From a virus: a DNA stretch of 38,955 nt. The position numbers and the translations under genes were made by a program. The stretch is from positions 1 to 38,955 of IMG/VR virus record IMGVR_UViG_3300030419_004104. One strand, given 5' to 3'. The notes beneath the pieces were generated by a model. The model made no database searches and was not told where the DNA came from. It was given only the letters and a program-made list of their open reading frames with translations. Below, in pieces: positions 221 to 26,081 of the stretch (positions are counted from its first letter, which is position 1; each line of letters begins with the position of its first letter).

Positions 221-1603
221 ATGCCAAGCCTGACATTTGAACAGCCAACAAAAGAAAAGCCAAAAGGACGTTGGGTTTTACAGTATAACATATGGATCTC
301 TGGATTCAGAAAAGATCCACCCCCACGTATTAAAAGAGTAAGTAAATCAGATATCACGAAAGCCCTGCAATTTGCCGTAAATCGAATTGAACAAGCGTCT
401 AAAAGTGGCATTGCTACATCGGAAGAAATAGATATATGGGTAAACGACTATAGAGAGTTTGGACTAACTAAACCTTTAATTAGTCCTGCGGATGCTGCAT
501 TGGTTTGGCCTGGCTACAGAGATCACATTAAAAGAACAAACTCCGTTGCTGCTGTGGAACTTGATATGAATTTAATTGTGGATAAATACCTTGAAAACGC
601 AAAAAATAAAACAAGGAAAGATTGGGGCAAAGAACCTGATTCATTACAAAAAACAAAAAATGAGCTTACAAGAGTTTTATCGGATGTAAGAAAAAAACAT
701 CCTAATCCAGCATCTATGTCTGAGGACGATTACTATGAATGGTGGGATATGCAACGGAATCAACATTCACCAAGCACCACAAACAAAAAAAATTATGCTT
801 TAAAAAACTTTTTTACTGCCTGTATAGATTTGAATTTAATAGACCGTTCCCCATATAATAAAAATCGATGCCCAACCATTAAACAAACAACGACAAAACC
901 ACGTAGAGTTTTAACCGAAGATGAGGCCAAACGAACGATTGAAGTTCTAAGCGCGAAATATGATTACTATACCGATCCCTGTGGACGTAAACATCCAATG
1001 CATGGCTGCATTGTAATCGCCATTTATTTCGGTCTGTATTGTGGGTTGCGAACCAATGAAATGCGATGGCTGGAATGGGACGCATTAGTAATAAATAAAA
1101 ACAAGGCATCATTTTTATATGTGAAAGAATCAACGTGTGCAGCTAACGGTGAAATACATACACCCAAAGATCACGAATTTCGAACGCTTGGTATTAAAGA
1201 TGAGTTAAAAAATATGATTGAGATTGAGAGAAAACGGCAAAATAAGTTAGAGATGTTAGGTCAATATATTATCCCATCAGGACGTTATGTGAAACAAGGC
1301 AGCAAATGGGATAAAGATCCTCGGAGCGTTGGCACAAAAAATGTAGTTATATCGAATAATCAATTTGCTGACAGTATAAAAGAATTTAATCAAAATGAAA
1401 AAGCAATATACGGCAGATCAGGATCAAGTAAGCCCACCTACACAAGCTATAGGCATACCTATGCTACCCAACTGCTCAGAAATGGTGTAGATATCGCAAG
1501 TGTTAAAGATCGAATGGGCCACGAGAAGATAGATACAACCAATAAGTATTTAACGCAAATAAAAGCAGAAGATTCTACTGTAGAAGAAAACTTACCGTAT
1601 TAG
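221..1603 (+). CDS. int: Tyrosine-family site-specific integrase (460 aa)
   Basis: Catalyses recombination between phage attP and the host tRNA-Tyr attB. Catalytic residues visible: Arg277 in CGLRTNEMRW, the box II Arg411 in TSYRHTYAT, a following GHEKID segment, and the nucleophile Tyr443 in NKYLT. The first position of the HxxR box is Thr rather than His, a tolerated variation in this family. Residues 1-90 look like an arm-binding region, and about 100-220 like a SAM-like core-binding domain (TRKDW, STTNKKNYALKNFF). The ATG follows a purine-rich site (GGAGCGAG). It stands alone next to the att repeat. From about residue 100 on it is strongly similar to the partial integrase at 38100, while the N-terminus is much more divergent. 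Confidence 0.95.
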   Translation: MPSLTFEQPTKEKPKGRWVLQYNIWISGFRKDPPPRIKRVSKSDITKALQFAVNRIEQASKSGIATSEEIDIWVNDYREFGLTKPLISPADAALVWPGYRDHIKRTNSVAAVELDMNLIVDKYLENAKNKTRKDWGKEPDSLQKTKNELTRVLSDVRKKHPNPASMSEDDYYEWWDMQRNQHSPSTTNKKNYALKNFFTACIDLNLIDRSPYNKNRCPTIKQTTTKPRRVLTEDEAKRTIEVLSAKYDYYTDPCGRKHPMHGCIVIAIYFGLYCGLRTNEMRWLEWDALVINKNKASFLYVKESTCAANGEIHTPKDHEFRTLGIKDELKNMIEIERKRQNKLEMLGQYIIPSGRYVKQGSKWDKDPRSVGTKNVVISNNQFADSIKEFNQNEKAIYGRSGSSKPTYTSYRHTYATQLLRNGVDIASVKDRMGHEKIDTTNKYLTQIKAEDSTVEENLPY

Positions 1604-1669: not shown

Positions 1670-1843
1670 CTACGCTGTACCGTGTGCGTCTACGTACGCT
1701 TGTCCCAACACATACGCAGCAGCAACGAGTGCGAGTGGCCACGTAATCTCCACGCTACCCGTACCTGCAGCTGCTGCTACCGCTGCAGTGACACCTAATT
1801 TTCTACTTCCTAATTTGTTTTTGAGATCGTCAAGAAATTTCAT
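1670..1843 (-). CDS. Small membrane protein, last gene of the late region (57 aa)
   Basis: The protein has a basic N-terminus (MKFLDDLKNKLGSRKLG) and then an Ala/Val-rich hydrophobic stretch over residues 18-50, long enough for one or two membrane passes. I chose the ATG at 1843 because it is preceded by AGAAGGGG; an ATG at 1876 in the same frame would overlap the upstream gene much more. It overlaps the end of the coiled-coil gene by 14 bases. Its place at the distal end of the late operon, in a run of small membrane or coiled-coil genes, suggests a part in lysis (holin or antiholin-like), but no family is recognised. Confidence 0.65.
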   Translation of the reverse strand: MKFLDDLKNKLGSRKLGVTAAVAAAAGTGSVEITWPLALVAAAYVLGQAYVDAHGTA

Positions 1844-2039
1844 GTGAATCGTCCCCTTCTTCGGTTTGTGGTTCATTTTCTGTTTTTAAATTTTTTAAAA
1901 TCGTGATCGCTCCCTGCTGTCGCTGCAGTAGATTCTGCAGCTCGTTAACCTTATTTTGAGCTGTCTGCAGCTCGGCTATAGCTGTGGCCTGATTTTGCTC
2001 CATGTCAGCTATTTTATCGTCTATATTTTTCGTTTCCAT
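1830..2039 (-). CDS. Small coiled-coil protein (69 aa)
   Basis: Residues 5-50 read as a continuous heptad-type coiled coil rich in Gln, Ala, Leu and Glu; the tail is acidic. There is no signal peptide or membrane segment. It lies 16 bases after the MscS-like gene and overlaps the following small membrane gene, so it is translationally linked within the probable lysis cluster. A soluble partner of a membrane protein, or a spanin-like role, is possible, but the absence of a membrane anchor or lipobox argues against a classical Rz/Rz1 component. Function unknown. Confidence 0.6.
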   Translation of the reverse strand: METKNIDDKIADMEQNQATAIAELQTAQNKVNELQNLLQRQQGAITILKNLKTENEPQTEEGDDSHEIS

Positions 2040-2055: not shown

Positions 2056-2475
2056 TTAAGTGGGAGGTTTTTGGGGATTTTTGCCGTTTATTTCACCCTC
2101 TTTAAAAAAATCTTTCGCGTCAAGTTTGGGTAGCGGTCGTTCGATCCGCAGACTAGCAAGCTCCGCATTCGGCACTGCCAACTTTGTTCCTCCAGAAATC
2201 GTGCCTTCCCTAAAAGTGTAGAGGTAAAAAACCGTTTTGGTCACGCTGACGCGGACTATGCGACCTGGCCTGTCACCATTTAATATTACGATGTCATCTT
2301 CGTTATACTCGTGGCCAAAAAAAACTTGCACACCTGCGACTGCGTTATCGATAGTAGACTTAAAAAACAACATGGCAAACGCGATGAGTGCTAGCCATGA
2401 CCATTCTGCTATTAAAGTATTCAAACCGGATTGCTGGCCGAATTCATTTAAAGCAGCTACTGCCTCTTGTTCCAT
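2056..2475 (-). CDS. Miniature MscS-like membrane protein (139 aa)
   Basis: One hydrophobic segment at residues 25-50 (ending STIDNAVAGVQVFF) is followed by a segment resembling the MscS beta domain: YNEDDIVILNG, then GRIVRVSVTKT, then the characteristic VPNAEL near residue 101. In bacterial MscS channels the pore helix TM3 leads directly into this domain in the pattern AG, GD/ED, G-V, T, PN. Here TM1, TM2 and the large C-terminal vestibule are missing; the rest is a 25-residue polar tail. It sits in the distal late cluster between a two-helix membrane protein and small coiled-coil and membrane genes, so a role in membrane permeabilisation or osmotic control at lysis is plausible. The MscS resemblance is by eye; the function is inferred. 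Confidence 0.7.
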   Translation of the reverse strand: MEQEAVAALNEFGQQSGLNTLIAEWSWLALIAFAMLFFKSTIDNAVAGVQVFFGHEYNEDDIVILNGDRPGRIVRVSVTKTVFYLYTFREGTISGGTKLAVPNAELASLRIERPLPKLDAKDFFKEGEINGKNPQKPPT

Positions 2476-2582
2476 TCGGCTCGCATCTTTTTAATCTGTT
2501 CTTTTCTTTTTTTTTGCAGTTCGCTTTTTTTTGTTGTATTTGCGCGCAGGATTTTTAGAATTTTGTTTAGTAGTGATTTCAT
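2457..2582 (-). CDS. Very small basic protein (41 aa)
   Basis: Starts at an ATG whose bases overlap the stop of the upstream membrane gene (ATGA) and ends 19 bases inside the MscS-like gene. The product is strongly basic (KKSELQKKRKEQIKKMRAEW) with a short amphipathic N-terminus (MKSLLNKILKIL). A longer reading with a start at 2675 is open but would run through the upstream coding sequence, so the short form is preferred. Function unknown; the charge pattern could suit a membrane-surface helix that modulates the neighbouring lysis proteins. Confidence 0.5.
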   Translation of the reverse strand: MKSLLNKILKILRANTTKKSELQKKRKEQIKKMRAEWNKRQ

Positions 2583-3007
2583 TCTTTTGTCGCCCGATAC
2601 ATAGCTGCGAGAAAAACAGTGACAAGCCAAACCATTGCTCCATACACAGCTTCGTGTTCCCAAAACGCTTGCCACTGCTTATCATTTCCACCTTTGGCAA
2701 ATGGGAACCCTATTGTGTGCCATAATTGGTATAGGATAGTTACGCATATAGCAGCTCCTCCGGACCATGCAGCTGCTTTTTTGCTTTCGTCTGCAGCTTT
2801 TTGCTTCTTTGTCAAAGTGACAACAGTCCGCTTAGTTTTCCCTAGTTCCTGACGAACTTCGTCTCGGTCGTGCCGAAATTGGTTTGCTACTACATTTGCT
2901 TGCTCTCGTTCCGATTTTAATGTTTCTATTTCTTTTACCGCCGCTAGGTAAAGGCGACGCTGTCTTTCCGCGCTTGGAATTTCTTCCGGTGGTGGATATT
3001 TGTTCAT
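2579..3007 (-). CDS. Coiled-coil plus two-helix membrane protein, holin candidate (142 aa)
   Basis: Residues 10-75 form a charged coiled coil (QRRLYLAAVKEIETLKSER and following). There are then two hydrophobic stretches, about 80-103 (AAICVTILYQLWHTIGFPF) and 121-138 (AVYGAMVWLVTVFLAAMY), separated by a short polar loop. Two membrane helices in a small late protein next to other membrane genes are consistent with a holin or holin regulator, but the N-terminal coiled coil is unusual for a plain holin. No conserved family recognised. The ATG at 3007 is 22 bases downstream of the fibre chaperone gene. Confidence 0.65.
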   Translation of the reverse strand: MNKYPPPEEIPSAERQRRLYLAAVKEIETLKSEREQANVVANQFRHDRDEVRQELGKTKRTVVTLTKKQKAADESKKAAAWSGGAAICVTILYQLWHTIGFPFAKGGNDKQWQAFWEHEAVYGAMVWLVTVFLAAMYRATKE

Positions 3008-3029: not shown

Positions 3030-3344
3030 TCATAGCGTGGGGCGCGTGTACACCCCATCTGTGCCAAACGCGTCAGTACTTGGCCAATCACGGAGTTCTT
3101 GGCGATATGTCATTATAGCTGAACGCTGAGGATGATCTGTTAATGGCACAATGTAATCGGTCGCTCTTAGTTCTCCGTTACGCCACGCTCGATGAGATTT
3201 AGCAATCTCTCCATCTGTAACAGTGCGCTCTGGGACAAGCTGGTACGATCCACCACCTGCGGTGATTTTTTTTGCAAAATCCTCATCCGCTACTATAGTG
3301 TTCTGTGATCCATCAGCATATGTTATATTGAATTTTGTTGACAT
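3030..3344 (-). CDS. Tail fibre assembly chaperone-like protein (104 aa)
   Basis: The C-terminal half carries the pattern of phage tail-assembly chaperones: a WRNGEL segment, then ATDYIVPLTDHP, then the signature MTYRQELRDWPS. In this family the segment follows an R-x-LL-x-x-TD motif and ends in YRQ-x-LRD. The gene lies directly after the glycine-rich fibre gene (4-base gap), the usual place for a chaperone that helps fold or attach distal tail fibres. The N-terminal 50 residues resemble a small domain with no recognised function. Confidence 0.75.
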   Translation of the reverse strand: MSTKFNITYADGSQNTIVADEDFAKKITAGGGSYQLVPERTVTDGEIAKSHRAWRNGELRATDYIVPLTDHPQRSAIMTYRQELRDWPSTDAFGTDGVYTRPTL

Positions 3345-24351: not shown

Positions 24352-24847
24352 CGTCCTCCGCAGTAAAGTCCGCTTCTATCGAATTAGCTTCTTGCAACTG
24401 CATCATCTCTTCCATTTGCGTGTTTTGTGCTACCCACTCCTCATACGAAGAGGCTTGCGGAGGTGCGTTAATGCCCTGATCCGCATCAGCCCGTTCCAGC
24501 ATATGTTTATGCACATGCGTTTCCCGTAGATCGCCCATCTCGCGTGCAATCGTTTCCAGCACCTTAATTTTCAACGAAATACGCTGGTCCGGTATCTTAC
24601 CATAGAGTCGCTGCAGTTCTTTTACGCGCTCCTTGCGGTCTGCCAGCTGCACATCATCAAAATTCTTCCGGTAAATATCCAGCTGACGCTTATACTCCTT
24701 ACAGAAATCCTTGTCCGTACGCCATAATGCAACAGTTTGAGGCGCAACGCCTAAATGGTTTGCCACATTATTCGTAGTCTTAGCTGGCACCCACCGGTCC
24801 AGTATCATCAACTGAATAGCCTGTTTATGATTCGTATTCAGCTTCAT
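24323..24847 (-). CDS. terS: Terminase small subunit (174 aa)
   Basis: Residues 1-60 form a helix-turn-helix (QAIQLMILDRWVPAKTTNNV then GVAPQTVALWRTDKDF) as in DNA-recognising small terminases, followed by a helical oligomerisation region (KNFDDVQLADRKERVKELQ) and a polar C-terminal tail. It recognises the packaging site and regulates TerL. The ATG at 24847 shares ATGA with the upstream gene's stop; a longer in-frame start at 24856 has no better support. Directly upstream of TerL, as expected. Confidence 0.85.
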   Translation of the reverse strand: MKLNTNHKQAIQLMILDRWVPAKTTNNVANHLGVAPQTVALWRTDKDFCKEYKRQLDIYRKNFDDVQLADRKERVKELQRLYGKIPDQRISLKIKVLETIAREMGDLRETHVHKHMLERADADQGINAPPQASSYEEWVAQNTQMEEMMQLQEANSIEADFTAEDVVENGTASS

Positions 24848-25686
24848 ACCCCACACATCCCTTCACATTCCTGCTCAAACATATCTATCTGATTTTCATC
24901 GTAATCTTGTAAAACGGCTTGCGCTAATGGTTGAAAATGACGAGATAAATACAGTTTACCTGTAATTCCAGGCATCGATCCCTGACGCAAACGAGTGTCA
25001 AAGTCAACAGCATCTGACCACTGGTCTGGTTTATTCTTTTTCATATCAACCCAAAACTTATTGGAATGATATGGACATCCGATGCAAGCACTTTTTGTTG
25101 TTGATTCAAATCCGTTATCGCGCAAATAACCAACGCAATCGTTTCTGCTTAATCTTCTTTCTACAAGCGGATAATAGTTTTCAATCCATTTATCGCGGCT
25201 ATCTTTCATCCGAGATGCTTCGTCAACAGAAATACCTATCCAGTTTCTTACTGTTTTTTTAACGCGCTGGCGCGGTTTGTAACCCAACAATTCCCGTATT
25301 TTTTTCTTTACTGGCAGTATTTTGTAATTTTGTGTGCACTGTCTCCATATCATCCCACCCTTATCAGGAGCCATTGTTGGTCTTATGTTGTCATCTTTTA
25401 CAAAAAATGGAGGATTTGACACGCTTCGTTTTTTTCCTGCAATTACATCAAGTGTGTCCTGGCGCAAATTTCCATGCGTAACGGTGTAAATAGGTATCTT
25501 ATCCGCGCCAAGCTGTTGCAGTTTTTCTACGTGCTCATAAACTTCCTTTGGTTCCCACTGCGTATCTGCAAAAATTGCTGCGGATGGAGTTGTTTCAAGC
25601 TCGCCGTTTAACGCCATGAGATAAAGCGCAGTGCTTTGTATCCCAGCACCTAAACTCAAAATCTCTAAGTCGTAAAGAGTGCTCAC
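24844..25686 (-). CDS. PP-loop ATPase, PAPS reductase-like (280 aa)
   Basis: The N-terminus has a modified PP-loop, LSLGAGIQSTALYLMAL, then FADTQWEPKEVYEHVEKL, as in the PAPS reductase / adenine nucleotide alpha hydrolase superfamily. A cysteine-rich element with CIGCPYHSNKFW lies near residue 195, with a further Cys in WRQCTQNYK, which could bind metal or a cluster. Members activate substrates by adenylation or reduce sulfate donors; in phages this group is often of unknown substrate, with DNA or tRNA modification as possibilities. Start GTG 25686 overlaps the endolysin stop (GTGA) and has AGGTGG upstream. Confidence 0.75.
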   Translation of the reverse strand: MSTLYDLEILSLGAGIQSTALYLMALNGELETTPSAAIFADTQWEPKEVYEHVEKLQQLGADKIPIYTVTHGNLRQDTLDVIAGKKRSVSNPPFFVKDDNIRPTMAPDKGGMIWRQCTQNYKILPVKKKIRELLGYKPRQRVKKTVRNWIGISVDEASRMKDSRDKWIENYYPLVERRLSRNDCVGYLRDNGFESTTKSACIGCPYHSNKFWVDMKKNKPDQWSDAVDFDTRLRQGSMPGITGKLYLSRHFQPLAQAVLQDYDENQIDMFEQECEGMCGV

Positions 25687-26081
25687 GAAATCCACCTCGC
25701 CTTTTCGCCACGCATATCCAAATGCACAAACCCCTTTTCCGGATACACCCCGATACCGTGAAAATTGAACTGATCCGCTAAGATGGCCAGTTCGTCCACA
25801 CGTTCGGGCGTAGGATCATTAGGCACCACATCAGTAGCCCATACCAGGTGCTGCGAATTAGGCGCACCTCCCACACTCCGGTTATACGCTTCATCACGCC
25901 ACGTTGAAGTAATCCGCAACGGACCATCCCAATGCGTGCGCACTGCTTGCAAATGTTTCATATGAGTCCAGAAACGGTCACTGTGCCGTATACAGCAATG
26001 GACCAAGAGCTTCTCCATATCACAATGATCCGGACAAAGCTCGTCCCACGAAAAATTGGGAATATCTACATGTATGCTCAT
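25683..26081 (-). CDS. Endolysin, M15-family peptidase (132 aa)
   Basis: Zinc peptidase that cuts peptidoglycan stem peptides at lysis. The M15A signature is complete: SQHLVWATD with His78 and Asp84, and the second His in GFVHLDMRGE at His120; ITSTWRDEAYNRSVGG precedes it as usual. No signal peptide or membrane anchor, so it needs a holin for release. Unusually it is the first gene of the late operon, over 20 kb from the membrane-protein cluster at the operon's end. A terminator-like hairpin lies just before its start codon. Confidence 0.88.
   Translation of the reverse strand: MSIHVDIPNFSWDELCPDHCDMEKLLVHCCIRHSDRFWTHMKHLQAVRTHWDGPLRITSTWRDEAYNRSVGGAPNSQHLVWATDVVPNDPTPERVDELAILADQFNFHGIGVYPEKGFVHLDMRGEKARWIS

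Follow-up and report, generated by a model that had tools for sequence, protein, structure and literature searches.

Miniature members of the MscS channel family are known from eukaryotes. TcMscS of Trypanosoma cruzi, a protein of 165 aa that consists of an N helix, TM2, TM3 and the beta domain and has no vestibule, is a tension-gated heptamer with a conductance of 478 pS (PMC12334622). The microsporidian MscS2, made up of TM3 and the beta domain, is a heptamer by cryo-EM for which no channel activity is recorded (PMC11262690); according to the account that the same article gives of work it cites, E. coli MscS deprived of its entire vestibule fails to reach the membrane. Among viral proteins, gp51 of the Paraglaciecola phage PANV1 has been mentioned in passing by its authors as an HHpred match to MscS (6RLD; PMC9239159), the one remark of this kind on a phage protein that our searches rendered. 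Giant viruses (Sylvanvirus, Aureococcus anophagefferens virus) also encode proteins with an MscS fold, but these are of 261-651 aa, belong to eukaryotic viruses and match less well than do the small viral proteins mentioned below. Our literature searches found no published study of the phage family reported here and agree with the first-pass annotation, whose author knew of no tested phage protein of this build; miniature MscS proteins that have been tested are, however, known from eukaryotes (PMC12334622, PMC11262690). By analogy, these two proteins indicate that an MscS core of the kind discussed below can assemble.

The gene that we call mini-MscS is located on the minus strand at positions 2056..2475 of the window, that is, the whole stretch of 38,955 bases of viral DNA that was analysed. 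It starts with ATG and encodes 139 aa, the interval and the length being exactly those annotated and the strand having been left unstated, and a search of its own 38,955-base virus record rendered a single match to the ORF. The protein of the window carries one hydrophobic segment, at about residues 25-38, after which come a TM3b-like helix and a beta domain of the MscS type. An AlphaFold model of the monomer, built on an alignment of 26 rows and of moderate confidence (pLDDT 74, pTM 0.52), has helices at residues 2-15, 17-37 and 39-55 and strands at residues 62-65, 69-76, 80-89 and 92-102. The first helix (2431..2472, minus strand, as are all the following segments) is acidic and lies outside the membrane segment; the second (2365..2427) is the single membrane helix and includes the conserved W27; the third (2311..2361), also supported by the alignment, is TM3b-like and includes G48, F52 and G54. 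The beta domain covers residues 60-112 (2140..2298), as indicated by Pfam, AlphaFold, Foldseek and hhalign, and contains the invariant N103.

The relationship to MscS was detected by profile and by fold. The window protein alone matches PF00924 over residues 41-109 with E 0.027 and 15 bits, which falls below the curated cut-off of 20.2 bits, and its use as a query against PHROGs and PDB sequences rendered nothing useful, so that a single sequence would make a weak case. The same Pfam family is matched independently by 21 of 26 mini-MscS members (best E 2.9e-6), and a scan of 46 contigs rendered 34 matches at E <=0.1, four of which exceed the curated cut-off. In hhalign, the family matched E. 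coli MscS alone with E 0.007 and a profile of nine MscS sequences with E 7.5e-5 and a score of 36.6; 30 column-shuffled controls scored at most 19.8, with E 0.034 at best, and the neighbouring protein c2, included as a negative control, did not match MscS. The first-pass annotation had proposed a Foldseek search with a heptamer model as a check; the best 46 PDB matches of such a search with the AlphaFold monomer are all MscS-family channels (probability 0.99-1.00), the top one being open MscS, 2vv5 (E 5.7e-4, probability 1.00), with TM-scores of about 0.4 that reflect an alignment over a portion of the chain. The lack of a structural match to the MscS beta domain, named in that annotation as a refutation, was thus not observed. 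Among predicted viral structures there is a close match of 138 aa (40% identity, E 2.5e-11), together with two other small matches. These results indicate that the ORF is a real gene encoding a stripped-down MscS relative, and that by its domain mini-MscS belongs to the MscS superfamily; it lacks the three features of canonical MscS channels that were tested, and is therefore not a channel of that class.

With E. coli MscS and PF00924 the protein has in common the TM3b-like helix, the beta domain and the invariant Asn of the VPN loop; it is devoid of the TM1/TM2 paddle, the alpha/beta vestibule and the C-terminal barrel. There are a median of 50 residues before F52, including one hydrophobic segment, and 0-51 residues (median 24.5) after N103, so that neither the sensor paddle nor the vestibule and barrel have room. 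The first-pass description of one membrane helix running into an MscS-type beta domain, with sensor helices and C-terminal vestibule missing, thus holds. TM3b of MscS (L115-N117...G121) corresponds in the alignment to residues 42-48. The kink between TM3a and TM3b (G113) maps near residue 40, next to the break at residue 38 between the predicted helices, which suggests that the single membrane helix occupies the place of the pore-lining TM3a. The Ala/Gly face of TM3a has been lost, however: Gly or Ala is consistent at position 32 alone, and the other positions are mostly bulky and hydrophobic. The GG[TS]K motif lies inside the beta hairpin that precedes VxN, a hairpin longer than its MscS counterpart. 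The VPN motif noted in the first pass is present in the window copy, but its Pro occurs in only 18 of 70 unique relatives, and the feature of the family is the Asn (70/70). The topology is probably N-out/C-in, as for TM3 of MscS; the charge pattern fits, since 26 members have between them 89 D/E and 14 K/R ahead of residue 25, and position 39, just past the membrane helix, is occupied by K, R, Q or N. TcMscS resembles mini-MscS in its short N-helix, membrane helices, beta domain and absence of a vestibule, but it retains TM2 and is a proven channel, whereas the phage protein, with its single membrane helix, is known here from its sequence and a model. MscS2, to which mini-MscS is likened by description, is a eukaryotic protein of bacterial origin with no phage context.

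Single-sequence searches rendered no relatives of mini-MscS among PDB sequences, viral contigs, phages or plasmids, and the family was recruited through the major capsid protein of the window, which led to 31 related contigs. One of them, G002 (37,416 bases), bears mini-MscS at 67% identity to the window copy within the same gene order (tail fibre assembly, c2, mini-MscS, c6, c7 and a convergent integrase). A two-sequence alignment used as query then rendered 31 mini-MscS loci, and a 26-sequence alignment at least 178 loci in viral contigs, 80 of which were kept. Relatives of the tail-fibre-assembly gene were tried as another route to the family and rejected, since that gene alone was in common and no mini-MscS was present downstream. 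The 110 loci collected for a size survey, in which a few contigs entered twice with different flanks, showed one mini-MscS match each, of 95-160 aa (median 127.5), so the miniature form is the family's own and does not reflect a truncated gene. With the searches used, no member was detected in 50,697 phage records. Neither was any host or prophage found with two alignments as queries in 84,980 prokaryote genomes, a null result that is weak evidence of absence because the scan requires an exact short peptide pattern. Given its abundance in uncultured viruses and its absence from the isolate collection searched, mini-MscS is a good candidate for the annotation of a common phage gene.

In 70 unique sequences, F52, G54, R72, F83 and N103 are invariant, W27 (64/70), G48 (65/70), Y57 (68/70) and G96 (69/70) are nearly so, and F38 and I42 in the helical part are likewise conserved. 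Values of dN/dS were 0.07, 0.11 and 0.18 for three unsaturated pairs of relatives, the synonymous sites of other pairs being saturated. The gene is under purifying selection, and these values together with the strong conservation indicate a selected function. A midpoint-rooted FastTree phylogeny of the same 70 sequences separated all 29 members of the short-tailed type from the large-phage groups at its root, so that mini-MscS is probably old in phages and not a recent acquisition. Minimal MscS-like proteins encoded by viruses thus make up a conserved family, whose members occur in many uncultured phages belonging to at least two distant lineages.

In the window, the late operon is on the minus strand and runs from an endolysin candidate through a phosphoadenosine phosphosulfate (PAPS) reductase-like gene to the terminase, capsid and tail genes. 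Its end comprises, in order, a tail fibre assembly chaperone (3030..3344), which is the last clear virion-assembly gene; c2 (2579..3007), a candidate partner of 142 aa with a long coiled coil and a hairpin of two hydrophobic helices, modelled as one long helix plus hairpin with pTM 0.36; a very basic ORF of 41 aa (2457..2582); mini-MscS; c6 (1830..2039), a coiled-coil protein of 69 aa with a sub-threshold match to XhlA; and c7 (1670..1843), a small membrane protein of 57 aa, all of them on the minus strand. A tyrosine integrase on the plus strand (221..1603) is convergent with the operon. The 41-aa ORF overlaps both neighbours, c2 at its end (ATGA) and mini-MscS at its start, and these overlapping start and stop codons suggest that the three genes may be translationally coupled. 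The c7 family has a weak match to the PHROG holin family phrog_9987 that recurs in 5 of 6 members (best E 0.0083), which makes a cassette of small membrane proteins plausible at this end of the operon. Elsewhere, c2 immediately adjoins mini-MscS in 21 of 70 unique loci, 10 of them with c2 upstream and 11 with it downstream, and the two genes often overlap by 1-4 bases; the persistence of the pair through swaps of its order suggests that both proteins constitute a working unit in this lineage.

We propose, with a probability of about one half, that mini-MscS is a small oligomeric pore of the inner membrane. Its short acidic N-terminal helix would stay outside, one helix would span the membrane where MscS has its pore helix TM3a, the amphipathic TM3b-like helix would come next, and the cytoplasmic beta domain would form a ring holding the subunits together, the oligomer being probably a heptamer by analogy with the two eukaryotic miniature proteins. 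At least in the short-tailed lineage to which the window belongs, its production would fall late in infection. Ions and small solutes would pass through it in response to membrane tension or in concert with c2 and the holin-like c7, so that turgor or membrane energization might be adjusted before lysis. In favour of a pore are the MscS beta domain and TM3b, the position of the predicted helix break, the charge pattern, the assembly of the eukaryotic miniature proteins, the selection on the gene, its place at the end of the late operon near small membrane genes, and its linkage to c2. Several observations count against a pore: the loss of the Ala/Gly pattern of TM3a and the charged or polar residues after the membrane helix; the missing Pro of the beta domain in most members; the failure of vestibule-less E. 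coli MscS to reach the membrane, as related in the article cited above, and the lack of recorded activity of MscS2; the moderate confidence of the monomer model; and the non-lysis neighbours found in large phages.

Three alternatives have to be considered at some length, the first two of which are partly special cases of a pore, so that our confidences in them and in the pore overlap. Mini-MscS could be a holin-like lysis protein that accumulates and at a set time opens the membrane or collapses its potential, with c2, c6 and c7, which we regard as rather unlikely. The lysis cluster suggested in the first-pass annotation stands inasmuch as mini-MscS closes the late operon between c2 and the holin-like c7, near the coiled-coil c6 with its sub-threshold XhlA match. 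It does not stand as regards the endolysin: the only candidate found in the window, a Peptidase_M15_3 gene at the head of the operon (25683..26081, minus strand), is 23 kb away from mini-MscS, and on the contigs of relatives where an M15 endolysin was found the distance ranges from 1.9 to >11 kb. As to other phages, which the same annotation had proposed to inspect for lysis genes next to this one, a small membrane gene occurs no more than two genes away from mini-MscS in 29 of 55 usable loci (53%), as compared to 33% of background positions, which is suggestive, the loci being non-independent. In contigs of large phages, of up to 168 kb, the gene is found in non-lysis contexts, however: opposite baseplate genes with a small membrane protein of 73 aa next to it, beside endonuclease and Dam-type methyltransferase genes, next to ribonucleotide reductase, or following terminase and portal genes, apart from lysis genes. 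Moreover, c7 is already a better holin candidate, mini-MscS matches no holin family in PHROGs or Pfam, and holins rarely have a cytoplasmic domain this large that is both folded and conserved. A lysis role is therefore partly supported by context.

It could also be the case that mini-MscS works as an osmotic safety valve, a tension-gated leak by which the infected cell would be spared early bursting or would survive osmotic change during virion maturation. The MscS ancestry and fold speak in favour of such a valve, as does the origin of many loci from IMG samples that we assume to be marine; bacterial hosts generally possess MscS and MscL of their own, which speaks against it. TcMscS, nearly as small, is tension-gated (PMC12334622), but mini-MscS lacks even the TM2 that TcMscS retains, and the pore face of TM3a is not conserved, so that we hold a valve to be improbable. 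Similarly doubtful is a non-conducting scaffold or decoy, which might block the entry of superinfecting DNA, poison heptamers of the host MscS by joining them as a subunit, or anchor c2. The much higher conservation of the beta domain, with R72 and N103 invariant, than of the membrane helix, the linkage to the coiled-coil c2 and the loss of the small-residue face of TM3a would agree with it, but the conservation of W27, F38, I42 and G48 in the helical part is that expected of a packed membrane oligomer. Finally, a virion component, such as a minor membrane-active protein entering with the genome, could be imagined from the position of the gene, which in the short-tailed group follows immediately on those for the tail fibre and its assembly and in L098-L101 comes after those for terminase and portal, but is very unlikely, since mini-MscS is on the opposite strand to the baseplate genes, including gp25 (PF04965), in one large-phage lineage and matches no structural family in PHROGs.

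Were the oligomeric pore correct, mini-MscS might be the smallest MscS-type pore known in prokaryotes or their viruses, acting with the coiled-coil and hairpin partner c2 as a switch responsive to tension or potential that sets turgor and the time of membrane failure, a proposal that we consider quite speculative. If true, such a permeability switch would join holins and pinholins as a third class of proteins that permeabilise the membrane to bring about or control lysis. If mini-MscS conducts, it would represent the minimal MscS pore in a form both simple and testable, and phages would be seen to control the turgor of their hosts through a pressure valve that they have borrowed. The family also probes how little of MscS suffices, since TcMscS keeps TM2 and the N helix and the phage proteins dispense with TM2.

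Some further observations concern the neighbourhood of the family and the collections searched. In a T4-like lineage, 16 loci (L157:5544-5762, L156:5441-5662 and 14 more) show beside mini-MscS a small membrane protein of 73 aa, highly conserved and with several hydrophobic stretches, for which neither an informative PHROG match nor a relative in phage records was found. Two further families, c36 and c47, comprise single-TM proteins of 46-84 aa near mini-MscS in the short-tailed lineage (L083, L084, L085, L088, L125, L128 and L143), and L110-L112 and L145 have a different Lys-rich ORF of 50-75 aa (cluster c78) where the window has the 41-aa ORF. When E. coli MscS was searched against the phage collection, the matches corresponded to full-length or partial mscS of the host type; they were rejected as members of the family and used solely as MscS homologues for the profile. 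At least some of these matches lie on bacterial, not phage, contigs, namely Salmonella genome contigs and 'Acinetobacter phage MD-2021a', where rsmE is beside mscS; phage-labelled records such as CAKLQH020000013.1, with ordinary bacterial mscS and housekeeping genes (rsmE) aboard, appear therefore to be mislabelled or contaminated host contigs. In the window, the Peptidase_M15_3 candidate at the head of the operon and the small membrane-protein genes at its end constitute a split lysis arrangement. The PAPS reductase-like gene (24844-25695, minus strand; phrog_424, E 1.8e-40), located between the endolysin candidate and the terminase genes, is possibly an auxiliary metabolic or DNA-modification gene.
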